In this document: one piece after another, positions 319 to 44,314 of the stretch
How the letters are laid out: each line of letters begins with the position of its first letter
Numbering within the stretch: position 1 is the stretch's first letter
IMG/VR virus record: IMGVR_UViG_3300020595_000057
Span: 1 to 47,172 of that record
Length of the DNA stretch: 47,172 nt
Origin: a virus
Strand: one strand, 5' to 3'
Notes under the pieces: model-generated
Databases searched by the model: none
The model's input: the letters and a program-made list of their open reading frames with translations, nothing else
Told to the model about the DNA's origin: nothing
Made by a program: the position numbers and the translations under genes

Positions 319-478
319 CGCCTTCCCACCATTTAATGTGAATCATTATGAATATTATATAAATATTCAACTCATAGCAATCTTCTACTTCATCAGGTGT
401 AAAGAATGCCCAACCTAACATTGGACCGATTCTAAATCTTTCTGATATTGCTACAACGTAGCCTAAATTATCGAACAT
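311..478 (-). CDS. 55-aa small membrane-associated protein in the lysis cassette
   Basis: The open frame extends upstream to 595, but that part lies inside the amidase gene. I place the start at the ATG at 476-478, which overlaps the amidase stop by only 11 bases. The 55-aa product begins MFDNLGYVVA and has a C-terminal hydrophobic run (LNIYIIFIMIHI) flanked by acidic residues, ending KWWEGDE. It resembles small C-terminally hydrophobic proteins seen in other phages, but I cannot name a family. By position it may help in lysis, for example as a holin or membrane-associated partner. Function unknown. Confidence 0.55.
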   Translation of the reverse strand: MFDNLGYVVAISERFRIGPMLGWAFFTPDEVEDCYELNIYIIFIMIHIKWWEGDE

Positions 479-893: not shown

Positions 894-3800
894 TTTTTCA
901 TTTTTTTGTAACCATCGTAATAAAACAAATCATAAAGAGTATTATCTCTTGCCTCTTTCTTTAAATCTCTAACAGCCAAACCTAATTCTTCTCCTTTAAG
1001 ACCTTTTAGATAACTTGAGTTTTCTCTTAATATTTTACCCACTGCTTTAGCAGATTCCATTTTATAAACCTGATATTCATCGTCATTCAAATATCTTTCA
1101 TCATTTATATCATAATCTTCAATTTTTCTATTAGATGCTTTTCCTACATACACCCCTTCACCTACAAGGTGTTTTGCTAAAGGATCGCCTTTTTCACCCC
1201 ACGTTAAGTCTATTGGAATTAGTTTGCTGCCTTGTTCTGGTATTATTGGGTCCCCATAATTATCTACCATATCGTAAAGACCAGAATTTGCTATAGGAAT
1301 ATCTCTGTATAACTGATCTATTGCACCTGTAAGAGTTCCATTTCTCCTTGCTTTTATAGGGTCATCCATGATTTCCATGTAACCTCTCACTAGTTGTTTG
1401 TGAAAATTAGGCATTGCAACAGCATTTAAAACTCCGAATGTTTTGTTTGCAATTGCTTTAGCAGGATCATTTGAATTTAAAATTCTACCAAGATCTGACA
1501 AACCTTGTAACCATGATTGTTGCAACATACTCATAGCGGTAGTTAATGTTACATAAGAGAATAAATCTGCATTACCTTCTCCGTCTATTGAGTTACCGTA
1601 TTTATCACTTTCATAAAGGGTTCCTGCGGCTGCAAGAATAAAATATAATGGGTGATCTTGATATGAAAAACTTGCTTCTCCTATTGTCACTGTAAAAGGT
1701 TTCCATCCTGCTTTTTTTAACTCATATTTTTTATTAAAGTCTCTCGGACCGGCTGCTGATATTTTAAGAACTGCATCTTCGTCATCTGCATGAGTCATAA
1801 GATATCCAACTAATCCCGCTAAAGTAGAAAAGCCCATAGAAGCCTTTATATATAAATCGGCTTTTTCTTCTGAGGATAGAATTCTTGTTTTACCACTTGC
1901 CATTCTTACCTTACCTCTGGCTGCGGTAACTGCTCCAATAGGTGTATAATGTAAAAACCTATTAAATACATTTGTTAATACTCTAGCAAATGGTATAAAC
2001 GTAGTCATTACAGGACCAACATAATCCATCTGTCTTGATTGCACTATAAAATTATACAAGTAACTCAACCCACCTTCTGGTTCGTAATTAAATGTTGTCT
2101 TTGCAGCAAAGTCCTCTGATTGTCCCTGAACAGTCATGTCTCTATTAGCCTCCATTAATTCATGAACACGAATCTTAAACTGAGTCGTTCCGTCTTTGTA
2201 GTTTTCTAATCTTGCTTCTGCTTTTGCTCTTTCTAAAGACTCTTTTGGAGGATTTATAATTGTTTCTGCTCTTTTTATGTCTTCTGGTGTTGCATTCTTT
2301 CCATTCTTTATTCTATAGGCAAGTGCTCTTGCTTGCATTTCTTTTGCAGAATGAAAAAACAATTGATCTCCTGCAACCATTGCTCTTTGAACATATTTTA
2401 AAAAGTTCGGAGACCAAGGAAGAAATTTAGAATTTAAAAGCCAATCTGCATTGTCTGTTACTTTTTTAGGTAAAAGTTTACCTATAACAGTATTGTTAGT
2501 ACTAAACCTCCACCACTCTAGCAAAGTTGGGTTATCAAACTTATTTGATTTATCTGATTTAACTCCTGTTTCTAAAATATGTTTTGCATTTAACCAACCT
2601 TTACTAAGTCCTTTTATCATCCCTAATGGTGCTTGAAAAATCGCAGCAGGGTTTCCTTTTATTCCTTCTCTTAATGACGTAACAAACAACTCATTACTGA
2701 TAGACATTACATTTGCAAATATGTTTTTTATCTGAGTTGGTACACCTGATAATATACTTGCATAAAAATATGCCACAAACACATCCTTAAAATTAGACCC
2801 TAGTAAATTCTGAATGTATTTATACTCAAGAGCCATTGCCTCAGATTTTGGTAAACCTTCTGCTGCGTTTTCAGAATCATTTTTAAGTCTTTTTAACTCA
2901 GTTTCTTCATCTTTTGTTAATGGTTGTTTGCCCGCTTCTTTTAACTTTTTATTTACTAAGGAAACTGTTCTATCTGCACTTAATGCTTTTAGCAAACTAA
3001 ACGCTTGAATAAATCGACCTGCTTTAGTTCCCTCTTTTGATATCTGCTCTACAATATTATTTATAGATGCTGAAATCAAGTTAGCCTCAGAATCTTTACC
3101 TTCTGTCCTTAGTTTTTGAATTTCTGCTTCTAACGCTGTTATAACTTTATTAGTTAAAGCAATTCTAACTTCTGGAAGTAGCCAATCAGGATTAGACTTT
3201 ATTATAACCACTGAATCCTCTAACCCTAATTTCTCAAACATAAAGTCCGCTTCAGCCTGAGTTATATTATTTCTCTTTGGGATATAAGTTTTTGCTTCGT
3301 CTGAAATCTGCTCAAATGTTTCTTCACTTAATACTTGTTCAAGTCTACTTGTATATTTTCTTTTTTCGGATCTAGGAGAATCTTCTGGAACTTTTCCTGT
3401 GTACATTTCACCTAATTCTTTTACAGAAATATCTGGAAATCTTTGGTTGAAATATTGTACAATCTCTCCTTCAGTAAATTTACCAAGTTCTTTGAATTTT
3501 GTTATAGCATCATAAACCTGTTTTTTATTTGTGTCTCCATCTAATTGGAATGACATTCCAGGGTTTTCTGATTTATTTAATATTCTTACAGGTGCATACG
3601 TTAATCCTACAGTTGTAGGTAGTATTTGAATGTAAGATCTTGCCTTACCATCTTTGTTTCTTGGTCTTCCTAATTCAATATTTGTATCAGTTTCTGGATC
3701 AGCAGTATGATCTCTCCAGTCCTTTCTGTCTTTTAATATATGTAATTTAGTTCTTGAATTAGTTTCTTTAGGATCAACTCCTATTGCTTTAGGGTACGAC

Positions 3801-6800
3801 TCATGTGCATCCGATTTAAATGTACTTAATTTAGTGTCAATCTCTACTACAGCATAAATCTTATTAGTTTCTGCTTCACCTCTAAGTAATGGCTCACCTA
3901 ACATGTATGATACAGCCTCAGTTAAGTTGGCTTTAGAAATTCTTCCACCTGTACCTGTCATTTGATCATAACCAATTGTATCTTTAAAGAATTTAAATAC
4001 CTGTGCATTGGTTTTAGTTATTTTATCAGACTTAATAAACTTCATTTTACCTTTAGCATCTAAGGCTTTAGGATTTACATTTTGTGCAAGCCTATCTAAA
4101 AAAGACTGAACAAATTGTTTTCTATCCTCAAAAGAGGATTTATCGTTTGCTAGTTTAGTTCTAATTAACTTTAAATTGTTCTCAACTGAAAACCTGTTTT
4201 TTGTATTTGCTCTAAGTCCTGTAATTTTATCAATCATCACAGGCTTACCTTTTACTTTTATAATGTTTCCTTCTTTATCTTTTTTCTTAGTCTTTTTAGT
4301 TGTAGTATCATTTGCAGCATTTACCAATGCTCTATTTACTTGTGATTTATTTAAACCTAAACCATCTATAAAAGTTTTAGTTGTAAATATATCAACAACA
4401 GCGTTAGAGGCTGTGGTAGAGGAAAGAAGTTTGCTTGCTTGTGCAGTTACCAATCCCATATATATTTTACCGTCTGGATTCTTTTTAAGAGATTCATTTA
4501 GTGTCTTTACTAGTGAGTCAGCACCTGATTCTGTTGAAGCCCAGAAAAAACCTTTTTCATGAAACTTTATAGGGTAGTACATACCGCCTTTACCCTCTAC
4601 AATTATTTCACCATTTTTAGCACTTATTTGACCAGAGAAAGCAAAATCAGGAGTATGCAAAACCATATGCTTGTCTGCAAAATATTCAAGTTCTTTGTCT
4701 CTTGTGATATCTCCAAAGGCTTCTAATAATTTAAACTTTTTCCCATTCTTGTCATATGAATACAGAAGCCCTGTTTGTGGATCTAAAAAGTTTGCTTGGA
4801 ACAATAATGTTTGTCCATTATCATCTACCTTAACTTCAGGCTCTACCTTAGATTCTGTTGATACGATTTTTTCTCCTGTTAGTATCTCTGTACTAGCAAG
4901 TTCTATAAATTCTCTTAGAGTAAGGTTTTCTATATCACCTTCACTTTTTACATTAAATTTGTTTTTAATAAAATCAAAAAACTCTTTTATCCAATTATCC
5001 CAAATACCTTGGGCTTCTTGACTTTCAAATATCTTAGCCCCACGTTGACCAATAGCAATTGCTAATGCTTCATCTAATATCTTATCCTCTGTATATACTT
5101 TTTGTAAATCAGGGTCTTGTGCTATTTGGTTTCTTAAATTTTTAACTATATCACTATCACCAATCAGAGACATACCTTTGTCCCACAATTCTTTTCTTTC
5201 TTGCTTTGCTAATCTTGTCCACACATGACCAAACTCATGGATAGGTGTATCCTTGTTTGCTGTTTTAGGATTTATTAATACCCTGTTATTTGTGGCATCA
5301 AATACACCTCTTGCAGTTTTGGCTCCTTCTGGTGACACACCTTGAGATAGGGCTAAATCTTCTACCGCTTTTGAATCTACAACCACCTCAACACCAGGAA
5401 AGTTTTCTTTCAATCTTTTTACTAATGGTGTTAAATAATCTCCATCTGCTTTGGCTGTTGTCACCTCTTCTTTAGTGAATAAAGGTTTTGGATTAGTTAC
5501 TTGGTCTCCCTTAACTTTTGGATTAGAGTTAGGTGCTACATCCATGCCTGCTTCTTTACGCTGACGATCAGACATTCTAGACTCTAACTTAGGATTTATT
5601 ACACTCTTTATGTCAACATCTTCAGTTTGTTTAACATCTCCTTCTGTACTAACACTAACATATTCTTCGTTTGTGAGTGTGTTATCTTTTGAAATTGTTT
5701 CCCTAGAAAAAACAGCACCTTTTTCATCTGAAATTTGCACCTTCCTGCTACCATCGAGTTGAGTGGTTACTGTAGCAATGTTTGTTTCCCCATTACCATC
5801 TTCATATGTAATCTTTTGTTGCGATACAGGTACTTGAGAGTCGTTATATCTTTCTTCTTTTGTTTCTGTTTTCTGGTCACCCTCTACTTTTGGGTCTGGC
5901 TTTACAGTTCCATTTAATTCTAATTCAGAATCGTTATCTAAAAAAGAATCCATTTCTGATTTTCTCTCTTCAGTTAGTTCTGTAGGCACTGAACTTTCAC
6001 CTTCAGTTTTTGGTTCTACTTTAGGCTGTTTCTTATTATTTTCTAGTTCTTCAGCAATAGCGTCATTAGTGAGGGCATACTGTGCCTCTAATACTTTCAT
6101 CAACGCAGGGTTTCCTTCTGCATTGTCCATTAATCTTTTTATATTATTAGAACTCTGAAACAAACTAAGTAATTTAGATTCTGACTCTTCACTTAATTTA
6201 TTTGTAGATAGTTTAGCCGCATCTAATTGATTAAACAAACTTGCAAATTCTGCTTTTTTTGCATCTGCTTGTTCTTTTGTATAGGTGAACATTTTTGCAC
6301 CTTCAGGATCCATATATTGTTTACCCACTAAATTATCTAATCTTTCAAAGAATTTTTCTTTTGCTTTATACGAAGCGTATGTTGCTTGTTGCTGTAAAGA
6401 TGACTGAGATGTAATATTCAATGGACCTGTTGAAGTTCCTGCTGCAAGACCAAATATTCCTGACTCTTCTATTTCTCCTCTTGACCATTCTATTTCAAAT
6501 GATTTTTCTGGCGACATTACTTGGTTAAATCCACCACGAACTGCATTAAGAGCAGGTATTTCTGCTAATTCTTCAAGGAATTCTCTTTTACCTGCACCAA
6601 ATACTTCTTTCATAGCATACTTAAATGCTGTGCTTTTAGATTCTTTACCTCCTTGTGCTAAATACGCAATGTATCTTTCTGTTAATTTTGAGGCTGCTTT
6701 CTTTTCACCGATCAAATAGAACTGTGGATTTATCTGAGCCACTGCTGCAACAGCAAGAGATCCAGTAACTGCAAAAGCAGAGGCTTCAGCAGGTGTCATA

Positions 6801-8569
6801 CCTTGTCTTATTGCCTCCCCATAAAGTTGGTTGTGAGTCTGTCCAGTTACAGCACCAGTTAGTGCAATTCTGTTTGCTACAGTAGATTTACTTAAGTAGT
6901 TACCCGCCCTTGTCAATCCTGATCCTTTTGCTAGTGCTCCTGTTGCTTTAACTCCAGTACCTAATCCTTTTGTCCCAATCATTAATATACCTAAGTCAGC
7001 CATAACTCCAACAAATTTTGGTAATGCACCCTCTAAGTTGTATTGTTGTTCAGATTTATATTCTTCAGGGTTTGCTTCGTACTTCTCTATTACTTGTTTT
7101 ACTATTTCATTGTCTTGTACTAAATACCCATCTTTATCTCTAACTGTTTTTGCTGATCTATATTCAGCACCTATGTTATCATCAACAACTAATTGATAGT
7201 CATCAACCATCGCAACTCTCTCAGACAAACCTCTATCCTTATTACTAGATTGTCCAAGTTGAGCAACCATGTTTGGGTTTTTTTCCTTACTAAATATTCT
7301 CTCTGATGCTTCTGCTAATGAATCTGTCCATCCATATTCGTCATTAAATGAAAGAGTTCTAGGAAGAGATAGTATATCATTTACTCCCTTAGCAAGTGAT
7401 GATACTATTGGTTTTGATATATTGTTTTTAAACCATTTTGGCTGTGGCATTTGTCCAGGAATTTCTGCGTCTGGAAGGTCATACTTATCCTTCATATCCA
7501 CATATGCTTGAGCACCCTTTAGGTTTTTTTGATTCTCAACCCACTCAGGGTTTCTAGTATCAAAATTTTCACTTACATCTCTAACATGACCTAATATGTT
7601 TATTGCTCTTTGATAGTTCTTAAATTCAGGTAAACTGTTTAGTTTAGAGAACCTTTCTTGCATATCTTCATATGAACCGTACTTGTATATTTTGTTTGAT
7701 ACACCTGTTTGTGTAGGTTTGTTAGACTTATAGTCTGCACCCTCGGACATTATATCATTTATTTCATCTATAAGGTCTTGTTTCCTTGTTGGATCAGTTT
7801 CTGTACCAAGTTTATCTTGTAGTATTTTTATTTCTTTCCCTTGGGAATTAAGTTGATTTATTAAAAATCCATATTCATCTCCATGATCTTTCCATACCTG
7901 ACTATTTTCTGTATCTTCTACAACAGAAAACATATCCTCTGAAAGAAAGTTAATTGCCTTTTGTTCAAAGTCTCCTTTTTCAACTCCAGTTAATTTATCA
8001 TTGTTATAATCTAATTGACTAGCAAACAATTCATTTCCTGATGCATTAGAGTAGTTTCTTAAAACATCATAAAAATCTGCTTTTTGTGTTACTAAATCAG
8101 AAGTAGTTGCTGCTGCAACTTTTGCTCTTTCTAATGACGCTTGTTTTTTTGCTTCTTCTTTTTTAGACTTGTTAGAGTCTATTATTGCTTGGGTTCTAGG
8201 ACTTACTCTTCTTGAATTTCCTCCAGGTCCAGTACCTCCAGATAGTTTTGGATTGCTTGATTTTCTTGCAACATCTGTTGTTTGATCTACAAAAGTAGAA
8301 GAAGATGCATTAAATCTAGGTAAGTTATCTGCACTTTCAGGAATATTATTTATACTTAAAGTTGGAGTAGGTAAAAACTTGTCAGCATTGAACTGATCAT
8401 AGTTATCATAACCCCAAACAGATTTAGCATTATCACCTAAATTATTAAATACTTTTTTTCTGTATTCACCAGATTGCATTTGAAACTTAAACTCATCATA
8501 AGTTCTTTTTTGAGGACCATATATTTGCCCTATTTTTTCCCAGGCTGCAAGTAACTCTTTGTCTTCCAT
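890..8569 (-). CDS. 2559-aa large polyvalent / internal virion protein with HEFGH metalloprotease-like motif
   Basis: This is the largest gene in the window. Residues 1-500 are polar and helical. Gly/Ala-rich hydrophobic segments lie at about 516-556 and 566-623. A low-complexity Glu/Lys/Thr/Val-rich linker spans about 825-1020. A zinc-protease-like HEFGH lies at 1111-1115 (H1111, E1112, H1115) after a region resembling phage polyvalent-protein peptidase domains. Further hydrophobic stretches occur at about 1935-1970, 2243-2270 and 2303-2320. The size, mosaic make-up and position after the nozzle and before the amidase fit an ejected internal virion protein comparable in place to T7 gp16. Large polyvalent proteins often carry enzymes delivered into the host. 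The third zinc ligand is not identified, so protease activity is inference. Confidence 0.75.
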   Translation of the reverse strand: MEDKELLAAWEKIGQIYGPQKRTYDEFKFQMQSGEYRKKVFNNLGDNAKSVWGYDNYDQFNADKFLPTPTLSINNIPESADNLPRFNASSSTFVDQTTDVARKSSNPKLSGGTGPGGNSRRVSPRTQAIIDSNKSKKEEAKKQASLERAKVAAATTSDLVTQKADFYDVLRNYSNASGNELFASQLDYNNDKLTGVEKGDFEQKAINFLSEDMFSVVEDTENSQVWKDHGDEYGFLINQLNSQGKEIKILQDKLGTETDPTRKQDLIDEINDIMSEGADYKSNKPTQTGVSNKIYKYGSYEDMQERFSKLNSLPEFKNYQRAINILGHVRDVSENFDTRNPEWVENQKNLKGAQAYVDMKDKYDLPDAEIPGQMPQPKWFKNNISKPIVSSLAKGVNDILSLPRTLSFNDEYGWTDSLAEASERIFSKEKNPNMVAQLGQSSNKDRGLSERVAMVDDYQLVVDDNIGAEYRSAKTVRDKDGYLVQDNEIVKQVIEKYEANPEEYKSEQQYNLEGALPKFVGVMADLGILMIGTKGLGTGVKATGALAKGSGLTRAGNYLSKSTVANRIALTGAVTGQTHNQLYGEAIRQGMTPAEASAFAVTGSLAVAAVAQINPQFYLIGEKKAASKLTERYIAYLAQGGKESKSTAFKYAMKEVFGAGKREFLEELAEIPALNAVRGGFNQVMSPEKSFEIEWSRGEIEESGIFGLAAGTSTGPLNITSQSSLQQQATYASYKAKEKFFERLDNLVGKQYMDPEGAKMFTYTKEQADAKKAEFASLFNQLDAAKLSTNKLSEESESKLLSLFQSSNNIKRLMDNAEGNPALMKVLEAQYALTNDAIAEELENNKKQPKVEPKTEGESSVPTELTEERKSEMDSFLDNDSELELNGTVKPDPKVEGDQKTETKEERYNDSQVPVSQQKITYEDGNGETNIATVTTQLDGSRKVQISDEKGAVFSRETISKDNTLTNEEYVSVSTEGDVKQTEDVDIKSVINPKLESRMSDRQRKEAGMDVAPNSNPKVKGDQVTNPKPLFTKEEVTTAKADGDYLTPLVKRLKENFPGVEVVVDSKAVEDLALSQGVSPEGAKTARGVFDATNNRVLINPKTANKDTPIHEFGHVWTRLAKQERKELWDKGMSLIGDSDIVKNLRNQIAQDPDLQKVYTEDKILDEALAIAIGQRGAKIFESQEAQGIWDNWIKEFFDFIKNKFNVKSEGDIENLTLREFIELASTEILTGEKIVSTESKVEPEVKVDDNGQTLLFQANFLDPQTGLLYSYDKNGKKFKLLEAFGDITRDKELEYFADKHMVLHTPDFAFSGQISAKNGEIIVEGKGGMYYPIKFHEKGFFWASTESGADSLVKTLNESLKKNPDGKIYMGLVTAQASKLLSSTTASNAVVDIFTTKTFIDGLGLNKSQVNRALVNAANDTTTKKTKKKDKEGNIIKVKGKPVMIDKITGLRANTKNRFSVENNLKLIRTKLANDKSSFEDRKQFVQSFLDRLAQNVNPKALDAKGKMKFIKSDKITKTNAQVFKFFKDTIGYDQMTGTGGRISKANLTEAVSYMLGEPLLRGEAETNKIYAVVEIDTKLSTFKSDAHESYPKAIGVDPKETNSRTKLHILKDRKDWRDHTADPETDTNIELGRPRNKDGKARSYIQILPTTVGLTYAPVRILNKSENPGMSFQLDGDTNKKQVYDAITKFKELGKFTEGEIVQYFNQRFPDISVKELGEMYTGKVPEDSPRSEKRKYTSRLEQVLSEETFEQISDEAKTYIPKRNNITQAEADFMFEKLGLEDSVVIIKSNPDWLLPEVRIALTNKVITALEAEIQKLRTEGKDSEANLISASINNIVEQISKEGTKAGRFIQAFSLLKALSADRTVSLVNKKLKEAGKQPLTKDEETELKRLKNDSENAAEGLPKSEAMALEYKYIQNLLGSNFKDVFVAYFYASILSGVPTQIKNIFANVMSISNELFVTSLREGIKGNPAAIFQAPLGMIKGLSKGWLNAKHILETGVKSDKSNKFDNPTLLEWWRFSTNNTVIGKLLPKKVTDNADWLLNSKFLPWSPNFLKYVQRAMVAGDQLFFHSAKEMQARALAYRIKNGKNATPEDIKRAETIINPPKESLERAKAEARLENYKDGTTQFKIRVHELMEANRDMTVQGQSEDFAAKTTFNYEPEGGLSYLYNFIVQSRQMDYVGPVMTTFIPFARVLTNVFNRFLHYTPIGAVTAARGKVRMASGKTRILSSEEKADLYIKASMGFSTLAGLVGYLMTHADDEDAVLKISAAGPRDFNKKYELKKAGWKPFTVTIGEASFSYQDHPLYFILAAAGTLYESDKYGNSIDGEGNADLFSYVTLTTAMSMLQQSWLQGLSDLGRILNSNDPAKAIANKTFGVLNAVAMPNFHKQLVRGYMEIMDDPIKARRNGTLTGAIDQLYRDIPIANSGLYDMVDNYGDPIIPEQGSKLIPIDLTWGEKGDPLAKHLVGEGVYVGKASNRKIEDYDINDERYLNDDEYQVYKMESAKAVGKILRENSSYLKGLKGEELGLAVRDLKKEARDNTLYDLFYYDGYKKMKK

Positions 8570-37010: not shown

Positions 37011-39290
37011 CTAAACTCCTGGCTGATCCATCATCTTCACACCCATTTCTTTAGTAGGAAGATTATCCATTGCGTTTCTCTCTATGTTTGATGCCTGTCT
37101 AATACCTTCTATCTCTAGTTCGTACTCGTACTTTTCTTTCTGTAACTTAGACGCTAACTCAGCCTTTATTTTCTCCATCTGCATCTTCATTTCCATTTCC
37201 ATTTGCAAAGTCTGTTGTTTAGACTGTTCTGCTGCTTGAGCAGACTGCTGTTGGATTTGACCATTCATTTGTTGTTGTCTTTCAGCATTAGCCTGAGCCT
37301 CTTCTCTTTTCTTTTTCATCCTGTAAGCAAGAACTTGTTGTGCCTGCTTTAGATTTGTTATTTGCTCAATATAAACAGCATCCTCAAAGTCTACTTGCCC
37401 TTGTGCAACGCTTCCCTGAAGAATTTGCATTAATCTTTGCTTCTGCTCTTCTGTTGGTCTATCTTCAATTTTTACTCCAAACTCATGTTTTCCAACAGAG
37501 GGTGACATTTTAAAGAATTCCATAGATTTATTACCTAAAGATCTTATATAGCCTTGTATTGGATTTTTCTTCACGCTGTCTTGCAACCTTATAATTACAG
37601 ATGCTGCTAAATTTTCCAGTAAATATCTTTCACCTTGTTCTATATGTGCTAAAGCATTATTAGTTGCTTGTGCAGCAAGTTTTGCAGTTGTAGTTAAAGA
37701 TCTTGCATCAGGTGTTGAACCATCCGTAAATTCATTAAGTCCAGTTATCTGCCTGATCATTTCAATATTATTCTGGATTACCTGATAATATGTCATAGCA
37801 TCCCTTCCTAATCCATTCTCTAACTCCTCTATTGGTTTATAGTTAGTTGCCTTTCCACCAATATCATTTTTTCTGTAAACTAACGTACCCGTTTTATTAA
37901 ACAAGTCAATCACATCCATTGGCTTCATTTGTTGTCCACCAGATCCTAAAGGAATATCTTCCAAAGCACCGAGTTCGATCATAATACCTTTAGGTCTCGC
38001 TTGATTGATTGTATTCTGAAGTCTATACCATGATATCTGTATTTGATCTGCAATAGGTATTAATTGTTCCATTATACCTAATGGCTTCATATTATGAAAA
38101 TCAGGTGAAAATAAATGATAAGAAAGATCAGTGTCCATCAACTTAGATTTAACTCTCTTCATATCATTACATAAACCATAATCATAACAATAATCAGAGT
38201 CAACAATCCATGATATTTTATATACAGTTTTGTACGAAGACCTTACATATTTGTTTTTTCTTTTGTTTTGGCTATTGTAACCTGCTCTACCAAATCTTTT
38301 ATTCCCTCTTTTATCTGTTCTAGACTCATGTACCATTTGATCAACAGAAAAGAATTCCATCTCCAATACAAGTATTTTACTGTCATCGTAATCCTTTGAA
38401 AATGATTTATTAGATGTATTCATCCTTACAGAACCTTTTCTGCCTGAAAATCTTTCAGCAATATCCTGGTATTCTTTCTCATCAAATTGATTACCTGCCC
38501 TTTGCTTCAAATCAGAAATAGACATTTCCGTAATCTCACCTATATGTATCTTGTCAGAAAAATCTCTTTTGTTACAATGAGATATTAATAACTTAGAAGG
38601 GTTTACTACTCTAATTTTAACAGCACCATTACTATCTATGTATTCTTTATATCCCGCAGCACCAAAATCAAATAAATATTCCATTACTTGTTTTCGCTTT
38701 TCATCCATTCCGTTTGTATGAAACACAAGGTCAATACCTTGCTCCATTTCAATAGAGGCATTATGCTTAAAAGTATAGTTCATGTGCATCTCAAGTTCCT
38801 CATCATTTTCAGGATCTTTTGGAGATTTCTTTAACGCACTAAATTCTTCCATTCCTGGAACAGTCTTGGATAAAGATTTTCTTAAATCCATTTTTGCTTT
38901 AGTACGCTTATAGTAGTCTTCTATGTCTGCTTGTGCTATGGCATCAATTGGAGTTGCTGTAATATTGTATTCTGTCTTATTTAATTTACCTAGTGCTATT
39001 CTTCTGAATTTTGGGACTATAGGAAGTACAGTCCAATCAATAGCAAACCAACTTTCATTATCAGATTCATCAACATTTAATAGTTGTTTGTACTTGTTTA
39101 CTGACTGGTTCCCTTGTGCATAATCTTTAATCTTAGCATAAGACCCACGATTATTATTAAATGACTGTGTACCATGATTTGTATAATCAAACCATGATGC
39201 TTTTGCATATGACAAACACCAATCCTTACCCTTTTGACTAGGGTCTAAATTATGGTTTGGATAATTTGCTTTACTCTCGTTTTTTATCAT
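37011..39290 (-). CDS. Portal protein
   Basis: The 759-aa product lies between TerL and the scaffold-like gene, its ATG overlapping the TerL stop by 4 bases. It has the mixed wing/stem composition of a podovirus portal: an N-terminal region with SWFAIDWTVLPIVPKFRRIA, a central part with KPLGIMEQLIPIADQIQISW, RQITGLNEFTDGSTPDARSL (about residues 515-534, a common portal motif region), and a C-terminal Gln/Lys/Glu-rich coiled coil (about 640-735, AEQSKQQTLQMEMEMKMQME) that suits a barrel or crown. It forms the dodecameric DNA channel. Length and order fit crAss-like and Cellulophaga podovirus portals. Confidence 0.82.
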   Translation of the reverse strand: MIKNESKANYPNHNLDPSQKGKDWCLSYAKASWFDYTNHGTQSFNNNRGSYAKIKDYAQGNQSVNKYKQLLNVDESDNESWFAIDWTVLPIVPKFRRIALGKLNKTEYNITATPIDAIAQADIEDYYKRTKAKMDLRKSLSKTVPGMEEFSALKKSPKDPENDEELEMHMNYTFKHNASIEMEQGIDLVFHTNGMDEKRKQVMEYLFDFGAAGYKEYIDSNGAVKIRVVNPSKLLISHCNKRDFSDKIHIGEITEMSISDLKQRAGNQFDEKEYQDIAERFSGRKGSVRMNTSNKSFSKDYDDSKILVLEMEFFSVDQMVHESRTDKRGNKRFGRAGYNSQNKRKNKYVRSSYKTVYKISWIVDSDYCYDYGLCNDMKRVKSKLMDTDLSYHLFSPDFHNMKPLGIMEQLIPIADQIQISWYRLQNTINQARPKGIMIELGALEDIPLGSGGQQMKPMDVIDLFNKTGTLVYRKNDIGGKATNYKPIEELENGLGRDAMTYYQVIQNNIEMIRQITGLNEFTDGSTPDARSLTTTAKLAAQATNNALAHIEQGERYLLENLAASVIIRLQDSVKKNPIQGYIRSLGNKSMEFFKMSPSVGKHEFGVKIEDRPTEEQKQRLMQILQGSVAQGQVDFEDAVYIEQITNLKQAQQVLAYRMKKKREEAQANAERQQQMNGQIQQQSAQAAEQSKQQTLQMEMEMKMQMEKIKAELASKLQKEKYEYELEIEGIRQASNIERNAMDNLPTKEMGVKMMDQPGV

Positions 39291-41272
39291 CCGACCTTAA
39301 ACTTTTTAAACATTGTTTTCGCTTCTACAAGATTTCCTTTTGCGTGAAAATTCCTTAATAGAATATTTTTATCTGCTATAAGAGTGTACCCTGCTGCCAT
39401 TGCCGCATCAAATTTTGTTGTTTTACTTATATCAAATTCTAACCAGTCTTTTAATAATTCTGGAAAGCAAACTCTTTCTATATTATTCTCTATATATTCT
39501 TCTGTTACTTCTGCTATTTGTTGATGTGTTCTCACAGATCCACTCATACCAGGCTTACCACTTCCAGGTAAATACATTAAAAAAGAAGCATAACCTCTAT
39601 CTTCAAAGTAATTTTTTATACCAATCTTGTTGTCTTCAAAAAGAAGTTGACAAGAATAATAATGACAGCACTTTAAAACATCTTCATAAAATTGTCTTGC
39701 GGTACTTGGTCGGTAAATGTATTCAACTATGAACGAACTGTCATAAAAATTTGATACTGAGTTGTGCTTCTTGTATACATAAAAGGCTCCATTAGATCTT
39801 CTTTGGTCTACAGTACTATCGTGATCATATGGATCACATCCAATAACAAACTCATTTTTTCTTGTAGGTAGATAATTTTTACCTCTTTTTAACACAATAT
39901 TTGCGTCTTTTTCATCATCAAATAAGTAAGTAACATTGAACCTTCCGTTTGACATTGGTTTAAATTCTACATGACCTGTTTCTCTATCTCCAACCCACTC
40001 AAAATTACCTTTAGTGTATAAGTTGTCGTTCCAAGATATACGATCAATTTGATCATTTAGTTTCATTGCATTAAATAAAGACCTTTCTCCATCTATCCGA
40101 AAAGCCTCTTCAATAGTGAATGGATTCCTTCTAATAATGCTAGATAAAGCACGATCATCATTGATAAGATTTGCACGTTCAGCCAAATAATAGTCCTTAG
40201 CACGTTCTTCATCTGCATGACCATATTTATCGAAGTATAAGGTTTTATATGAGGGAGTAAAGAATCGAAATAATCCACTGGGAGTTCTACCATGAACATT
40301 TCTATCTTCTTGATTACTGTTGTCCCAAAGTCTTTTAAATGACTCACCACCTGATTCCATTTCCTCAACAGTGGTTGTGTAAAGTAATTTTCCAATATAC
40401 TCACCATCCAGTTCCGAACAGAAACGTACAACGTTATGCCTTTCCCAGACATCCACTTCCATAGTTTTTCCAACCTCGTCACCAAGGTATCTGTGTAATT
40501 TTGTTCCATCATATCCATATTTTTCTGAACTCTTCCAATCTATTTGGCTTTCAAGTTCTGGTTTACCTAAATCTTCTAACGATTTCTTTCCTCTTTTTGT
40601 AGTTCTATAAAATCTTAATTCCGATGTTGGGGTGACCCCTTTTGACTGATCATATACTGGTCTAAAAAAGTCTGGTAGTTTCTTAAAAGGTCCTACTATA
40701 GACTTTGCAAAAACATTGTTTTTAGCATCACTTGCAGTTTTGGACTGTATCCCACCGTTTTTATTTTTAGATCTTGATATAAGGTCAAACATAAACACAC
40801 CTGCTCTTACTGTCTTACCCTGTCTACGTTTTGTTAACTCTATCATTCCTAAAGAGTTAGGATCGTCTATAGTAGCCTGTAAAAAATAAAAGTATTCTTG
40901 ATCTACTTTCCTGAAACTTGGATATCCAATATCAATTTTCCACCAGTTTAAAAATAAGTAATGCATTCCTGTAAGATATTCAGCCTTACCATTATTCATA
41001 AACCACACACCATTCAGTCTTCTATCCCACTCCTGTGATCTAAAGTTTTCTAACTCTACGTCAAAGTAATCTTTATCTTCAGCCTGTCTAATTAATTCCT
41101 CTTTTCTCTTATAGTTATAACTTTCGGGGAGTGTAGTCCTAATCCAAACTTGATCTACCTTTTTAGATGCACTAGTTATAATAGGTCTTTTCTCAAACTC
41201 CTTAGATATAACATTATAAACCTCCCCTTTTGGAGGCAATGTAAAATCTACTCCTTGTATATTTACTGTCAT
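39287..41272 (-). CDS. Terminase large subunit (ATPase and nuclease)
   Basis: The 661-aa protein contains a TerL ATPase: a Walker A-like KRRQGKT at residues 148-154 after GMIELT, and a Walker B-like YLGDEVG with D265-E266. The C-terminal RNase-H-like nuclease is marked by GCDPYDHD (D480), LLFEDNKIG (E546, D547) and KTTKFDAAMAAG (D622). The N-terminal GMHYLFLNWWKIDIGY and the TKRRQGKT form resemble TerL of crAss-like phages. It binds the portal and packages concatemeric DNA, cutting it at each headful or site. The ATG overlaps the upstream stop by 4 bases. Confidence 0.93.
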   Translation of the reverse strand: MTVNIQGVDFTLPPKGEVYNVISKEFEKRPIITSASKKVDQVWIRTTLPESYNYKRKEELIRQAEDKDYFDVELENFRSQEWDRRLNGVWFMNNGKAEYLTGMHYLFLNWWKIDIGYPSFRKVDQEYFYFLQATIDDPNSLGMIELTKRRQGKTVRAGVFMFDLISRSKNKNGGIQSKTASDAKNNVFAKSIVGPFKKLPDFFRPVYDQSKGVTPTSELRFYRTTKRGKKSLEDLGKPELESQIDWKSSEKYGYDGTKLHRYLGDEVGKTMEVDVWERHNVVRFCSELDGEYIGKLLYTTTVEEMESGGESFKRLWDNSNQEDRNVHGRTPSGLFRFFTPSYKTLYFDKYGHADEERAKDYYLAERANLINDDRALSSIIRRNPFTIEEAFRIDGERSLFNAMKLNDQIDRISWNDNLYTKGNFEWVGDRETGHVEFKPMSNGRFNVTYLFDDEKDANIVLKRGKNYLPTRKNEFVIGCDPYDHDSTVDQRRSNGAFYVYKKHNSVSNFYDSSFIVEYIYRPSTARQFYEDVLKCCHYYSCQLLFEDNKIGIKNYFEDRGYASFLMYLPGSGKPGMSGSVRTHQQIAEVTEEYIENNIERVCFPELLKDWLEFDISKTTKFDAAMAAGYTLIADKNILLRNFHAKGNLVEAKTMFKKFKVG

Positions 41273-41865
41273 AAATTGGCTATAAATTCTGGAGTTAATC
41301 TTTTATCTGCTTTTATAGTTTTTAACAACTCTTGATCCTCTCCATAAAGTTTCATGTAGTAAGAATCTAACCTGTCGTTTATAGTATTTAAGTCATCCAT
41401 TATCTTAGACTTTATTTGCAAAGCCTGTAGTATATCTTTATCTCTTTCTCCTTCAACAGGACTTAATAATTTAGTCTGATATTCAAAAAAAGTTTGCTCA
41501 TTAGAAACTATCATTGACCAAATTCTATTATTTTGTTTTCTAAGAAATTCATCAACCATCTCAACTAATTTAGAGTTGGTAAAGAAAAATATTTGATTTA
41601 ATGCCTCAGCATCCTTTGTCAAATTATATCCTGACAACTCTGCTGCTTGCTCTTTTCTTATTTTTAAATCTGGAAACTGTTCTTTTAGTGGAGTATTCTG
41701 GTCGTACATGTAGAGCACATACGCAATTAACTGATCCTCAGCAGTTTGAAATGTACTAAACATTTTCATCTTTGGATACTTTTTTTTCAATGAACCTCGA
41801 ACCTTAAAAGGATTAAAGATCATCTTACTAAAGTCTTCAGAATTGAAGATTTCGGATAAAGACAT
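41269..41865 (-). CDS. 198-aa protein upstream of TerL, possible small terminase
   Basis: This is the first gene of the late operon and overlaps TerL by 4 bases. It is largely helical: SLKKKYPKMKMFSTFQTAED, LKIRKEQAAELSGYNL (residues about 67-82, loosely helix-turn-helix-like), and a C-terminal coiled coil around QIKSKIMDDLNTINDRLDSY. TerS proteins are typically small, helical, DNA-binding and encoded just before TerL, so that role is likely by position. There is no sequence motif that proves it. It could instead be an assembly factor. Confidence 0.5.
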   Translation of the reverse strand: MSLSEIFNSEDFSKMIFNPFKVRGSLKKKYPKMKMFSTFQTAEDQLIAYVLYMYDQNTPLKEQFPDLKIRKEQAAELSGYNLTKDAEALNQIFFFTNSKLVEMVDEFLRKQNNRIWSMIVSNEQTFFEYQTKLLSPVEGERDKDILQALQIKSKIMDDLNTINDRLDSYYMKLYGEDQELLKTIKADKRLTPEFIANL

Positions 41866-42008
41866 ATTGTTGGTTTTGCGTAAAAATATATCAATTATCT
41901 TGAGGTGTTGTCAAATTTTACAATCCACTTTTACCACACTATTTTGGGTACTGAATTTTTAGTCCATTTTTATAGGTAACAATTATATTTACCCTTTAAT
42001 ACATTGAC
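41866..42008. promoter_or_regulatory. Divergent promoter region between late operon and small-gene operon
   Basis: These 143 bases separate the late minus-strand operon from the plus-strand small-gene operon and must hold promoters for both unless transcription enters from elsewhere. The sequence is A/T-rich. A hairpin-like inverted repeat GGTAA/TTACC lies at 41975-41979 and 41989-41993, just before the plus-strand start. I found no clean Bacteroidota TAnnTTTG element, although the minus strand has a near match (TAAAATTTG). A phage-encoded RNA polymerase or sigma factor could use other sites. Confidence 0.5.
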
Positions 42009-42254
42009 ATGGCATTGTATCAAGGTAAGAACGTTACGCTTAATAAAATTATGAAGTCGGAACGAGCAGCAAAAAAAAGTAAGGTTTACGTAAAAAAACC
42101 TAACGGAAAGGTTACTGTCGTTCACTTTGGTGATCCTAACATGAAAATTAAAAAAAACATCCCTAGCAGAAGAAAATCTTTCAGGGCTAGACATAAATGC
42201 GATAACCCAGGTCCAAGATGGAAAGCAAGATACTGGGCTTGTAAAACATGGTAA
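42009..42254 (+). CDS. 81-aa conserved basic phage protein
   Basis: A small, basic protein with VKKPNGKVTVVHFGDPNM, then RRKSFRARHKCD and NPGPRWKARYWACKTW at the C-terminus (residues about 53-81). The two Cys and the RKSFRARHxCDNPGP..KARYWxCK pattern recur in small proteins of many marine phages, in my recollection; their role is unknown. It is the first gene of the plus-strand operon and overlaps the next gene by 7 bases. Possible nucleic-acid or virion association follows from the basic charge only. Confidence 0.75.
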   Translation: MALYQGKNVTLNKIMKSERAAKKSKVYVKKPNGKVTVVHFGDPNMKIKKNIPSRRKSFRARHKCDNPGPRWKARYWACKTW

Positions 42255-42547
42255 AAGAAAATATGACACAGAAAATCAGTGAATCAACAGAGGTAAAACT
42301 TGACTTAAAGACTATTGGAATTATAATTGGGTTTGTTATGAGTCTTGCAACAGTGTTTTTCACTTTAAAAGCAGATATTGCTTTAGCGAAAGAACTGCCT
42401 AAACCTCCAATAACAAGATCAGAATACGACTTAAAAGATCAGTTAGTAAGAGAGCAAATAATGAATACAGGTGCTCAAGTACTAGAAAATGGTAAGAAGT
42501 TGGATCTAATAGAGGAAAGATTATATGAACTTAGTATAAAAAAATAA
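42248..42547 (+). CDS. 99-aa single-pass membrane protein with coiled coil
   Basis: One membrane segment lies at about residues 22-40 (LKTIGIIIGFVMSLATVFF), followed by a charged, helical C-terminal half (YDLKDQLVREQIMNTG, then KKLDLIEERLYELSIKK). The ATG at 42248 overlaps the upstream stop; a second ATG at codon 6 would give a 94-aa version without overlap. The topology is like that of the 81-aa protein in the lysis cassette, although the two sequences do not look alike. Function unknown. Confidence 0.65.
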   Translation: MVKENMTQKISESTEVKLDLKTIGIIIGFVMSLATVFFTLKADIALAKELPKPPITRSEYDLKDQLVREQIMNTGAQVLENGKKLDLIEERLYELSIKK

Positions 42548-42553
42548 TTTATT

Positions 42554-42904
42554 ATGAAAAATGTATTCTTTAGCATTTTATTGCTATTCTTCCCCTTAAA
42601 CTCTAACTCCGTAAAAAGTGATATAGTTAAAAGCAAGATTTTTAGTAAAATTGTAGTTTATCAAATAAACTCTGAGTGGAATGAAAGGAATATGATAAGA
42701 AACCTAGATGCTTTAAGAGGTTGTAAATATGTATATGGATATTTAGAAGATCAACCAGATGTTTTTAAAGAAAAAATTAAATCTGTTCCTGCTGTTTTTA
42801 TTACTAATAACGGTAAAATTGTTTACAAGTATCAAGCAGGTCTATCATTAGTTCCAACTATTAAAAGAGCAGAAATTCAAGAAATTGTAAATAAACATAG
42901 ATAA
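42554..42904 (+). CDS. 116-aa exported protein with thioredoxin-like C-terminal half
   Basis: Residues 1-18 are a signal peptide-like stretch (MKNVFFSILLLFFPLNSN). The mature part has KIVVYQINSEWNE, an RGCKYVYGYLED segment and KSVPAVFITNNGKIVYKY, which resembles the cis-Pro and final strands of thioredoxin folds. Only one Cys is present in the mature part and no CxxC, so redox activity of the usual kind is unlikely. The protein may act as an envelope binding or scaffold protein. The fold call is a weak visual one. Confidence 0.6.
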   Translation: MKNVFFSILLLFFPLNSNSVKSDIVKSKIFSKIVVYQINSEWNERNMIRNLDALRGCKYVYGYLEDQPDVFKEKIKSVPAVFITNNGKIVYKYQAGLSLVPTIKRAEIQEIVNKHR

Positions 42905-42908
42905 AATT

Positions 42909-43184
42909 ATGGATGAAGAAAAAATTAAAAGACTCAAGGAAAAAATTGCATACCTACGAAAAATGGGTAAAGAAGATAAAGCCATGAATCTTGAAAGAAG
43001 AATCAAACAATCTAAAATCAAAAAAGATTATAGAGAAAACAGGACACCTTCTAAAATTGGTAAAATATTAAGAAAAGCAAAAAAGGCTGTTGTTAATACC
43101 GCAAATACTGTAGCAAACGAAGTTAAAGAGACTGTTGATACAGTAAAGAAGGTTAAAGAAATTAAAAAATCTAAAAAAAATTAA
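42909..43184 (+). CDS. 91-aa Lys-rich helical protein
   Basis: The protein is highly basic and helical: MDEEKIKRLKEKIAYLRKMG, then LERRIKQSKIKKDYREN, a TPSKIGKILRKAKKAV stretch and an amphipathic Val/Thr/Asn helix ending KEIKKSKKN. The composition suits nucleic-acid binding or condensation, or membrane association. It starts 4 bases after the previous stop. I know of no family and infer no specific function. Confidence 0.65.
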   Translation: MDEEKIKRLKEKIAYLRKMGKEDKAMNLERRIKQSKIKKDYRENRTPSKIGKILRKAKKAVVNTANTVANEVKETVDTVKKVKEIKKSKKN

Positions 43185-43186
43185 TC

Positions 43187-43258
43187 ATGGCATATTCAAA
43201 AATTAAAAAGAAATGTAAGTGTGGCAAACCATACAGTAAATGTAAGAAGTGTAAATAA
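43187..43258 (+). CDS. 23-aa Cys/Lys-rich micropeptide
   Basis: The gene reads from ATG at 43187 to TAA at 43256-43258, in a 76-base gap with its neighbours 2 bases away on each side. The peptide contains four Cys in CKCG and CKKC within a basic MAYSKIKKKCKCGKPYSKC-type chain. A CxC plus CxxC arrangement could bind one zinc ion. The fit in the operon supports translation, but with only 23 codons the evidence is thin. Function unknown. Confidence 0.55.
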   Translation: MAYSKIKKKCKCGKPYSKCKKCK

Positions 43259-43260
43259 GC

Positions 43261-43497
43261 ATGGCAGCCAAAAGAGACTACAAAGCAGAATATAAGAAGT
43301 TTCAGTCATCTCCCGCTATGATAAGATATAGAGCACTTCTTAATAAGTACAATCGTAAGAGGGGTACATATGGGAATGGTGATGGTTTAGATGCATCTCA
43401 TAAAAACGGTAAAATAGTTGGTTTCGAACCTTCTAAAATAAATAAAAGCAGAAAAGAAAAAAGTAGATTAAAAAAAACAAACACCAATTTAGCATGA
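43261..43497 (+). CDS. 78-aa HNH-like degenerate small protein
   Basis: The sequence DYKAEYKKFQSSPAMIRYRA, then RKRGTYGNGDGLDASHKNGKIVG and EKSRLKK resembles a family of small phage proteins with an HNH-like core, in which GDGKDVDHKNG precedes an Asn-rich tail. Here the core reads DASHKNG, so one His is kept but the full HNH triad is not evident. It may have lost nuclease activity. The gene overlaps the next start by 4 bases (ATGA). Confidence 0.65.
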   Translation: MAAKRDYKAEYKKFQSSPAMIRYRALLNKYNRKRGTYGNGDGLDASHKNGKIVGFEPSKINKSRKEKSRLKKTNTNLA

Positions 43498-43643
43498 GTA
43501 ATACTATAGAATTAAGAAAAACAACAAAAAAGGATCATTTTAGACTTCTTTTAAATGGAACCGATGTAACCGGAGAACAAGAAAAAGGCACATTTAGACA
43601 TATATTAGAAGTAATTGATAAGGGTATTGATTCAGGTTCTTAA
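43494..43643 (+). CDS. 49-aa small protein
   Basis: ATG at 43494 overlaps the upstream TGA in an ATGA junction, a common sign of coupled translation. The product (MSNTIELRKTTKKDHFRLLL, then NGTDVTGEQEKGTFRHILEV) has a short beta segment, a turn and a C-terminal helix. Charged and soluble; no known family. The spacing on both sides supports it as a real gene. Confidence 0.6.
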   Translation: MSNTIELRKTTKKDHFRLLLNGTDVTGEQEKGTFRHILEVIDKGIDSGS

Positions 43644-43655
43644 TAAAAAATAAAT

Positions 43656-43826
43656 ATGAGTCAAGAATTAAATAAAGAAGTAGAAGAATTAGAAATATTG
43701 AAATCTATGACTTCTGATTTTGGGGAGCAAATGGAAATAGCGGATAAGATTCATAATATAAAAATGAAGATTAACGGAGTTAAACCAACAGATTCATATA
43801 TCGACTGTGTTGGATGTGGCTCATAA
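43656..43826 (+). CDS. 56-aa helical protein with C-terminal CVGCGS motif
   Basis: Acidic helices (MSQELNKEVEELEILKSM, then GEQMEIADKIHNIKMKINGV) are followed by KPTDSYIDCVGCGS at the C-terminus. I have seen this final CxxC-type tag in small proteins of marine phages; its function is not known. The two Cys may bind metal in an oligomer. It begins 12 bases after the previous stop. Confidence 0.65.
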   Translation: MSQELNKEVEELEILKSMTSDFGEQMEIADKIHNIKMKINGVKPTDSYIDCVGCGS

Positions 43827-43836
43827 ATAAAACTGT

Positions 43837-43977
43837 ATGAGTAATATGATAAAACGTGCTGATGGTAGTTACTCTCAAAGAGGTCTTTACGATAATATTC
43901 GTAAGAATAAAGGATCAGGTAAAAAACCATCAAAAGAAATGATCAAACAAATTAAGAAAATCAAAAAAGAAGAATAA
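43837..43977 (+). CDS. 46-aa basic small protein (SQRGLYDNIRKNKGSGKKPS family)
   Basis: The product reads MSNMIKRADGSYSQRGLYDN and then IRKNKGSGKKPSKEMIKQIK plus a basic end. The GLYDNIRxNKGSGKKPxKEM core is familiar from small proteins in many marine and Bacteroidota phages, though no function is established that I know. Basic and probably unfolded at the C-terminus, so it may bind nucleic acid or a virion protein. Confidence 0.7.
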   Translation: MSNMIKRADGSYSQRGLYDNIRKNKGSGKKPSKEMIKQIKKIKKEE

Positions 43978-43978
43978 T

Positions 43979-44155
43979 ATGGCAGATCAAATAGTTTCTA
44001 TAACAGATCAACAAACCGTTGATGTATTAGCAATAAGAAAAATAGAAGTACTATTAGATGTAATGGCTGCATTAGAAAATTCAAATGCACCAGAACTTTA
44101 TGGTGTTAAAATTACTGTTATAGATAAGATCGAACGAGCAGTAAGTAATCTATAA
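43979..44155 (+). CDS. 58-aa helical protein, last gene of the plus-strand operon
   Basis: The product MADQIVSITDQQTVDVLAIR, then KIEVLLDVMAALENSNAPEL, ends in a VIDKIERAV helix. It is soluble, mixed charged and mostly helical. The ATG follows the preceding TAA by one base. Its last two codons, including the stop, overlap by 6 bases with the end of the minus-strand gene at 44150-44314, so transcription of the two operons converges here. Confidence 0.6.
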   Translation: MADQIVSITDQQTVDVLAIRKIEVLLDVMAALENSNAPELYGVKITVIDKIERAVSNL

Positions 44156-44314
44156 TAAACTATCTAATAAATTTTGTAGTCCAGGTATACTAGGATGATA
44201 TGGGTGTTCTAACTTAAGTGATAATATTAAGAGCATTATCTCTTCTTTAGTCAATTTTTCAACAGGTATACTAGTTTGAGTTCCAGGTTTTATAGATTTG
44301 CTTGAGTCTTTCAT
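44150..44314 (-). CDS. 54-aa protein closing the minus-strand small-gene operon
   Basis: The ATG at 44312-44314 lies 44 bases inside the end of the HNH gene, and the TAG stop at 44150-44152 overlaps the opposite-strand gene by 6 bases. The product MKDSSKSIKPGTQTSIPVEK, then LTKEEIMLLILSLKLEHPYH and a final LLDSLL helix is plausible as a small helical protein. The 44-base overlap with HNH is larger than usual, which lowers confidence. No family is recognised. Confidence 0.45.
   Translation of the reverse strand: MKDSSKSIKPGTQTSIPVEKLTKEEIMLLILSLKLEHPYHPSIPGLQNLLDSLL

Follow-up and report, generated by a model that had tools for sequence, protein, structure and literature searches.

A conserved cluster of ten small genes divergent from a phage terminase operon: a candidate late unit with two envelope genes

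The viral DNA analysed here, from an uncultured marine phage (IMG/VR record IMGVR_UViG_3300020595_000057, positions 1 to 47,172; 47,172 nucleotides, hereafter the window) carries, next to its terminase operon and on the opposite strand, a run of ten small genes. What are these genes for, and when during infection would they act? A first-pass annotation, made from the sequence, proposed host takeover. We favor another reading, to which we give a probability of about 0.55: the stretch would be one late unit of small accessory genes, two of which, g2 and g3, would have their role in the cell envelope as infection ends. The ten genes are as follows.

42009-42254, plus strand: g1, 81 aa, basic (+20), DUF5754-like (phrog_7595, E 6.3e-11; dN/dS 0.03)
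42248-42547, plus strand: g2, 99 aa, one transmembrane helix on the N-terminal side and a hydrophilic helix-like tail (dN/dS 0.05)
42554-42904, plus strand: g3, 116 aa, signal-peptide-like start, predicted thioredoxin fold without CXXC (dN/dS 0.21)
42909-43184, plus strand: g4, 91 aa, basic (+18) (31 loci; dN/dS 0.35)
43187-43258, plus strand: g5, 23 aa, basic, four Cys (dN/dS 0.06)
43261-43497, plus strand: g6, 78 aa, basic (+15) (phrog_6437, E 2.9e-12)
43494-43643, plus strand: g7, 49 aa (9 loci; dN/dS 0.11 from 14 pairs)
43656-43826, plus strand: g8, 56 aa, acidic, 2 Cys, C-terminal C[VI]GCGS (dN/dS 0.11)
43837-43977, plus strand: g9, 46 aa, basic (+9) (16 loci; dN/dS 0.19)
43979-44155, plus strand: g10, 58 aa, acidic, last gene of the cluster (37 loci; dN/dS 0.19)

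The ten genes are genuine. All are ATG open reading frames of 23-116 aa, separated from g1 to g10 by -7, 6, 4, 2, 2, -4, 12, 10 and 1 bases. Together they cover 98.8% of 42009-44155, compared with 37.3% for the opposite strand and a mean of 21.6% (maximum 46.5%) in 1000 Markov-1 shuffles, so that the packing described by the first-pass annotation holds. Median dN/dS ranges from 0.03 to 0.35 (pairs with 60-99.5% protein identity and dS < 2), with single pairs reaching 0.83 for g1 and g4. Relatives were found for every gene, from 9 loci for g7 to 42 loci for g1, in 49 regions including the window. The 48 relatives are those with enough upstream DNA among 80 of the 226 TerL loci found; since these loci are related and many are nearly identical, the counts are not independent. 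The first-pass annotation had named a lack of homologues and of codon-level constraint as what would speak against it; neither was found, because each gene has homologues and a low median dN/dS.

The protein types noticed at first pass were all identified: strongly basic proteins (g1, g4, g5, g6 and g9; pI 9.9-10.8, net charge +9 to +20), one membrane protein (g2), one exported protein (g3, also basic, pI 9.7) and two Cys-rich ones (g5 and g8). A DNA search of phage records with the whole region gave no match, and Pfam and PHROGs searches with the ten genes matched only the families of g1 and g6, both without function. g4-g10 stay without assignment; two genes can be placed in families, g1 as DUF5754-like and g3 by its predicted thioredoxin fold.

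Comparison with relatives shows that the cluster is conserved as a unit with a modular interior. The gene lists compared were bounded at g1 and g10, and a separate check found no cluster-family gene outside these limits: none beyond g10 in the 37 copies ending in g10 (window included), and none before g1 in the 32 of them that have g1. Inside, one slot holds either g2-g3 (23 of 37 clusters) or another family, F12 (14 of 37), never both and never neither. DUF5872 genes also occur in relatives' clusters, and a lipoprotein, F21, in three relatives only. Some of the cluster families lie in line with late genes in distant relatives.

The timing of the cluster can be addressed from the 143-bp gap from which g1 and the terminase operon diverge. 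The features concerned are:

41954-41991, plus strand: g1 promoter, AATTTTTA, 22 bases, TATATTTA; conserved in relatives
41881-41919, minus strand: promoter-like site of the terminase-side operon, same architecture as the g1 promoter
41269-41865, minus strand: putative small terminase subunit (TerS), upstream of TerL, assigned by position alone
39287-41272, minus strand: terminase large subunit (TerL), 31-32% identity to TerL proteins annotated in phage records

Both promoters of the gap have one architecture, AAATTTTTA, 22 bases, TATATTTAC, and the g1 and TerS sites have in common AAATTTT, 22 bases and TATWTTTAC. The g1 pattern has its sole exact match in the window at this site and none in 100 shuffles. 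Matrices were built from 10 of 17 listed loci, with the window's near relatives excluded. In four genomes, the matrix of one strand ranks the site of the other strand 2nd to 12th among 94,000-128,000 positions. With a joint matrix, three sites per genome score above the best of 10 shuffles: the g1 site, the TerS site and one inside TerL. The likeness of the g1 and TerS sites is moderate, the TerS site of the window scoring 18.1 where shuffles reach 17.5 at most, and the site pattern missed 2 of 17 minus-strand sites (L047 and L048). Seven more distant relatives (L064, L067, L069, L072, L074, L075 and L076) have a divergent gap of just 13-53 bp, which confines the promoter pair to the closer group. 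Scanning for generic sigma-70 promoters was uninformative, and the canonical TTTG/TAHHTTTG pattern gave one match for 2.2 expected.

From the architecture held in common with the terminase operon, we infer that g1-g10 are expressed late. The first-pass annotation had described the cluster as opposite to the late operon. This is right for the strand; by the promoter evidence, the timing is probably not opposite. The divergent pair thus offers a testable late-promoter model for this phage group. The -7-like box of the promoter fits a Bacteroidota host, as judged from an excerpt of PMC6847099. TerL relatives, found in Flavobacterium and Cellulophaga phages and all below 60% identity, fit it as well, in agreement with the host proposed at first pass.

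g2 is a bitopic membrane protein, with one clear transmembrane stretch (Kyte-Doolittle 2.23). The window copy has no significant holin match; one relative weakly matches the holin/anti-holin family phrog_10340 (0.11), and a g2 paralogue in relative G001 matches phrog_1296 (0.0048). g3, the sole exported gene of the ten by prediction, has no lipobox Cys. Its profile matches thioredoxins of the PDB at E ~1e-6 (thioredoxin-1, 1.3e-6). The AlphaFold model (mean pLDDT 77, about 80-95 in domain blocks) retrieves thioredoxins as top Foldseek matches (best E 6.9e-4, TM-score about 0.45). Pro79, invariant in 21 sequences, equals the cis-Pro position by alignment to thioredoxin. Profile, model and fold search therefore all liken g3 to the thioredoxin superfamily, from which it differs in being phage-encoded, predicted to be exported and devoid of the CXXC redox motif in all 22 distinct members. 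Because CXXC is absent, g3 is best described as a predicted thioredoxin-fold protein and not as a thioredoxin enzyme.

In relatives, g2 and g3 belong to a fixed trio with a third gene, F11, that the window does not have. The order g2-g3-F11 is nearly exceptionless: g3 lies upstream of F11 in 75 of 79 loci and g2 in 71 of 79, and the loci without one or the other have at most 600 bases of upstream DNA (L215, with no F11 open reading frame, was left out). F11 has a signal-like start. Its model (mean pLDDT 71) contains about 12 long strands, and the 50 Foldseek matches listed are outer-membrane proteins (best E 2.7e-6), with TM-scores by query length of only 0.2-0.36. On this modeling, F11 resembles an outer-membrane barrel. 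The type of g3 also follows F11: all 9 clusters with a window-like g3 (at least 64% identity) are without F11, and all 14 with the other type of g3 have it. In the searches made F11 is virus-only, with 126 stretches in viral contigs and no relative in genome contigs among 32 candidate stretches. F11 and g3 were expected in cultured phages of Cellulophaga or Flavobacterium, but neither was found there, and the 50,697 records of sequenced phages gave no match to either. The literature searches made brought up no paper on the trio, which does not prove that none exists.

Lysis genes are frequent neighbors of the trio. Among 62 F11 loci without g10, 35 have a gene of this sort nearby. In 26 it is an M15 or amidase endolysin, a holin, or both, within 3 kb; in another 9 it is a u-spanin-like gene directly after F11. 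These counts include L191, a truncated member of the group to which the window belongs, and the M15 and holin models used were partly built from the same loci. Independent library matches to F11 neighbors gave holin 9, endolysin 7 and amidase 4 of the 82 scanned (of 130, from 31 of the 79 loci chosen as less redundant), and these matches were checked individually. In relative G006 (locus L065) an amidase is located inside the cluster, after g2, g3 and F11. In G001 the g2 paralogue is flanked by amidase and holin and occupies the place of the Rz-like gene of the window and G002. F12, the family that replaces g2-g3, weakly matches a holin family (E 0.22), and in phage elemoA an F12 relative overlaps the endolysin gene by 26 bases. 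The window's own group departs from this picture, with no lysis gene within 3 kb in its 17 F11 loci by the models used. The window cluster contains no endolysin; the window amidase is 41 kb away, in the following pair:

468-893, minus strand: amidase endolysin, far end of the late operon (phrog_822, E 1.3e-61)
73-318, minus strand: 81-aa membrane protein, weakly Rz-like spanin (phrog_739, E 3e-4)

Judged on sequence, g2-g3-F11 appears to be an undescribed membrane-to-outer-membrane gene set, in uncultured phages often beside lysis genes. In the reading that we favor, the cluster would be transcribed from the gap that also serves the packaging operon, by a promoter of the same type. g2 and g3 would then act late on the envelope, aiding or timing lysis, g2 spanning the inner membrane and g3 serving as a periplasmic binding rather than redox domain. 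In relatives that have it, F11 would extend this bridge as far as the outer membrane; this phage and its nearest relatives would have lost F11, and g2-g3 would work without it. The remaining genes, g1 and g4-g10, five of them strongly basic, would be late accessories.

The likeness to holin-endolysin-spanin cassettes lies in the inferred late expression, in a small membrane and a predicted exported protein, and in the endolysin (M15 or Amidase_2), phrog_3427 holin and u-spanin-like genes that adjoin in relatives. Such cassettes do not as a standard include a thioredoxin fold predicted to be exported or a protein resembling an outer-membrane barrel, both of which belong to this set; the window version is moreover separate from the endolysin and without F11. 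An excerpt on flavobacterial phage lysis cassettes names holins, endolysins and spanins and, within that excerpt, mentions neither thioredoxin nor the outer membrane (PMC8776804). The layout of g2, an N-terminal helix followed by a hydrophilic tail, recalls the two-component spanins. These Rz/Rz1 pairs consist of an inner-membrane subunit and an outer-membrane lipoprotein partner, and the window cluster has no such lipoprotein. A simple spanin role for g2 was also considered and rejected: in 9 loci u-spanin-like genes are present in addition to the complete trio, which is thus not simply a spanin. In T4 lysis inhibition, a membrane protein (T) and a periplasmic partner (RI) act on lysis timing. 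By analogy, this is one way in which g2-g3 could work; RI is not known to have a thioredoxin fold.

A bolder version, which we find rather unlikely, would see in g2-g3-F11 an undescribed device spanning the envelope, with which uncultured Bacteroidota phages time or complete lysis. Its parts would be an anchor in the inner membrane, a periplasmic adaptor with a redox-dead thioredoxin fold and a barrel in the outer membrane. The device would either sense the outer surface or breach the outer membrane; in the window it would have been slimmed, with g3 diverging after loss of the barrel. Outer-membrane opening and lysis timing by marine Bacteroidota phages are poorly known. A common envelope system may have gone unnoticed, since the 50,697-record collection holds no phage carrying the trio.

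The same components, placed in the inner membrane, periplasm and outer membrane, could instead serve superinfection exclusion or surface remodeling. g2-g3, with or without F11, would alter the envelope of the infected cell and block other phages, and would lie near late or lysis genes only through late expression. A virus-only F11 and the 27 of 62 F11 loci with no recognized lysis neighbor (some truncated, others among head-tail genes) suit this explanation. Nevertheless, the trio adjoins endolysin, holin or u-spanin-like genes repeatedly and in separate phage groups, and the g2-g3 slot is exchanged with the holin-like F12; we therefore find exclusion rather unlikely.

The families of g1 and g6 bear on a further possibility, that the cluster is a detached part of the structural operon encoding virion components or late-packaged assembly helpers, the basic ones with DNA. 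The promoter type in common with the packaging operon and the high positive charge of the small proteins are consistent with it, and nucleic-acid binding by the basic proteins is a guess that this charge allows. g6 has homologues in 101 phage records (Flavobacterium, Synechococcus, Prochlorococcus). Its relatives lie by annotated terminase genes in cyanophages S-RIP1 and S-B28, in the latter between those for the terminase small subunit and endonuclease VII. g1 has homologues in 30 phage records (Pelagibacter, Roseobacter, Methylophilales, Flavobacterium and others), some near head genes in Kolga and CRP-901; the motifs said at first pass to recur in small marine-phage proteins are thus borne out for g1 and g6. 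In larger phages, however, the surroundings of g1 are mixed: the domain has glycosyltransferase, cytidyltransferase and DNA polymerase genes in its vicinity rather than lysis genes. The 71 neighbors scanned (of 150 listed, from 52 of 80 loci), with a single portal family and a single virion protein family among them, did not support a virion role for g1. g3 is predicted to be exported, which is unusual for structural proteins of this type. We find a structural role for the cluster rather unlikely as well.

Early host takeover, for which the many short unassigned genes, several of them basic, and the rapid turnover of gene content between relatives speak, may still apply within g4-g10 but seems very unlikely for the cluster given the terminase-type promoter, two envelope genes whose relatives often adjoin lysis genes, a g1 nearly invariant in the group (dN/dS 0.03) and the cluster families that distant relatives keep in line with late genes.

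g1 connects the cluster with a family of small proteins common to algal viruses and phages. PF19058 (DUF5754) is matched by 7 of 13 members of the g1 alignment (best 1.3e-13), and the window g1 alone reaches 10.7 bits against a cut-off of 27.4; a search of the PDB with g1 gave no usable match. DUF5754 and DUF5872 are both listed as unassigned proteins of Chrysochromulina parva virus BQ1 in an excerpt of PMC12085832, and one phage locus (L147) encodes the g1 domain and DUF5872 fused into one protein. Finally, two of the smaller proteins keep their cysteines: the g8 C-terminal tail is retained in 13 of 14 distinct members, and the pattern C-x1or2-C-x6-C-x2-C, found in all 9 distinct members of g5, suggests a zinc-knuckle-like protein.

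In this virus record of 47,172 bases, the region 42009-44155 (+) is tiled by ten small ATG ORFs, g1 to g10 in order, with intergenic gaps of -7 to 12 bases. These ORFs cover 98.8% of the region, a value that 1000 shuffles did not approach (46.5% at most). All ten genes are kept in relatives and their median dN/dS ranges from 0.03 (g1) to 0.35 (g4). Thus, the packed plus-strand genes described in the first-pass annotation, including the 23-aa g5, were confirmed, and the ten-gene cluster is real and conserved. The end of a 54-aa ORF of the opposite strand (44150-44314) overlaps g10 by 6 bases (44150-44155), leaving virtually no room between the two convergent units. The terminator scan found no plus-strand terminator at this end of g10.

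g1 starts at 42009 (+) and the first gene of the divergent terminase side at 41865 (-), leaving 143 bases between them. Within the close group, the gap measures 132-174 bases, L037 and L038 deviating only through a more upstream called start. Each of the two starts has, ahead of it on its own strand, an AT-rich element followed after about 22 bases by a -7-like box.

Putative promoters of the divergent gap
g1 side, (+): AAATTTTTA ... TATATTTAC
Terminase side, (-): AAATTTT ... TATTTTTAC

The box is similar to the Flavobacterium -7 element, TANNTTTG in the available text of PMC6847099, the window having A in place of G. When the window and three relatives were scanned with a matrix built from the sites of one strand only, the site of the other strand ranked 2nd-12th of 94,258-128,000 positions. 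With a joint matrix, the g1 site of the window scored 26.7, a site inside the terminase gene TerL 21.9 and that of TerS (the gene upstream of TerL, named by position only) 18.1, the best of 10 shuffles reaching 17.5. The three relatives have these same three sites and none besides above shuffle level. From these sequence matches, we read a single late promoter class that would drive both sides of the gap. The cluster is probably late, and its earlier interpretation as a possible host-takeover island is not borne out on present evidence. The gap narrows to 13-53 bases in 7 more distantly related loci, and therefore the promoter pair is not universal. The copy within TerL (39287-41272) lies at 39721 (-), at the same place in the related genomes G001, G002 and G003. 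This copy could serve the portal side as an internal promoter, or it may reflect only coding conservation.

A search with the window TerL gave 226 relatives in viral contigs, of which 80 were kept; the 48 with enough DNA and the window itself made 49 regions, surveyed with profiles of the ten genes. g1 occurs in 42 regions, g10 in 37, g4 and g6 in 31 each, g2, g3 and g8 in 27 each, g5 in 24, g9 in 16 and g7 in 9, counts that are not independent because many loci are nearly identical. Genes of the cluster families were found neither beyond g10 (0/37 regions having g10) nor ahead of g1 (0/32 having both g1 and g10). Between these two genes, the content is exchanged among relatives.

Gene families in relatives' clusters
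F11: about 366 aa, exported
F12: 57 aa, one helix
F18: interior gene
DUF5872 proteins: PF19197, 1.7e-12
F21: lipoprotein
F9: charged, 300 aa

In one relative, L034, two separate small genes match the DUF5872 model, one its first part (5693-5848; E 0.0072, under the cut-off) and the other its later part (4290-4547; 1.7e-12), as if the family were split over two genes in this phage group. The cluster of another, L065, holds a CxxCxxCC metal-binding-type protein (2151-2441; PF03692, 5.6e-8).

The interest of the cluster lies in g2 and g3 together with F11, a partner absent from the window. This envelope gene set was not found in the sequenced phage records searched. g2 is a membrane protein made of one helix followed by a hydrophilic tail. 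g3 has a signal-peptide-like N-terminus. Thioredoxins are matched in the PDB by a profile built on 21 g3 sequences (thioredoxin-1 at 1.3e-6) and in Foldseek by the g3 model (mean pLDDT 77; best 6.9e-4, TM about 0.45). CXXC is found in 0/22 distinct members; P79 and G87 are invariant. The F11 model (pLDDT 71) is strand-rich, with about 12 long strands, and the 50 Foldseek matches listed for it all come from outer-membrane proteins, the best at 2.7e-6, with TM-scores that are low.

F11 follows g3 and is adjacent to it in 13 of the 14 clusters with F11; a lipoprotein separates the two in L047. F11 is absent from all 9 clusters with a window-like g3 (64% or more) and present in all 14 with the other g3 type, which suggests that g3 was altered upon F11 loss. 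A wider search gave 126 F11 relatives in viral contigs (80 kept); none was confirmed among 32 candidate stretches of genome contigs. Upstream of F11, g3 is found in 75/79 and g2 in 71/79 loci with an F11 ORF; the 8 loci lacking one or both have 600 bases or less of upstream DNA.

The slot right after the g1 position is occupied by g2-g3 in 23 of 37 clusters and by F12 in the other 14, never by both or neither. F12 is similar to gp39 (3.2e-10) from Flavobacterium phage elemoA and weakly matches a holin family (0.22). In elemoA, gp39 shares 26 bases with the overlapping gene gp38, which is annotated as a carboxypeptidase and classed by PHROGs as an endolysin (4.9e-43).

An M15 endolysin, amidase or holin lies within 3 kb of F11 in 26 of the 62 F11 loci without g10 (including L191, a truncated locus from the window's group). 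A u-spanin-like gene directly follows F11 in 9 further loci, and 27 have neither. The M15 and holin models were built partly from the same loci, and therefore 82 F11 neighbours were re-tested with the PHROGs (holin 9, endolysin phrog_894 7, amidase 4) and Pfam (M15_3 7, Amidase_2 4) libraries; one-by-one checks were consistent with these results. The explicit order g2-g3-F11-endolysin-holin is seen in L196, L198, L200, L206 and L227, and an amidase (PF01510, 2.9e-9) lies within the L065 cluster. None of the 17 F11 loci in the window's own group has a lysis gene within 3 kb of F11; in this group, the endolysin gene occupies the distal end of the late operon. There, G001 carries a g2 paralogue between the amidase and a phrog_3427 holin, at a position occupied by an 81-aa Rz-like gene in the window and G002. 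A short frame overlapping the amidase gene end (311-595, -) is conserved in G001, G002 and G003 and probably represents a genuine small gene that begins at an inner Met. The 2559-aa protein encoded at 890-8569 (-) is strongly conserved in G003 (2785 bits), whereas in G001 (77 bits) and G002 (65 bits) it can hardly be recognised, even though its neighbours are conserved there.

Two interior genes are marked by cysteines: g5 (43187-43258) has four in 9/9 distinct members, and g8 (43656-43826) a C[VI]GCGS terminus in 13/14. By sequence, g1 is DUF5754-like: 7/13 family members match this model (best 1.3e-13), the window g1 being below cut-off. DUF5754 and DUF5872 are both listed for an algal virus in the available part of PMC12085832, and one phage protein (L147:7353-8258) fuses DUF5872 with the g1 (phrog_7595) domain. 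The g1 domain also occurs in larger phages, where it frequently forms the end of a longer protein and has mixed neighbours. In the distant relatives elemoA and MW202828, the terminase genes are preceded on the same strand by g1 relatives, with an M15-type endolysin between, an arrangement that would fit a late module turned round in the window's group.
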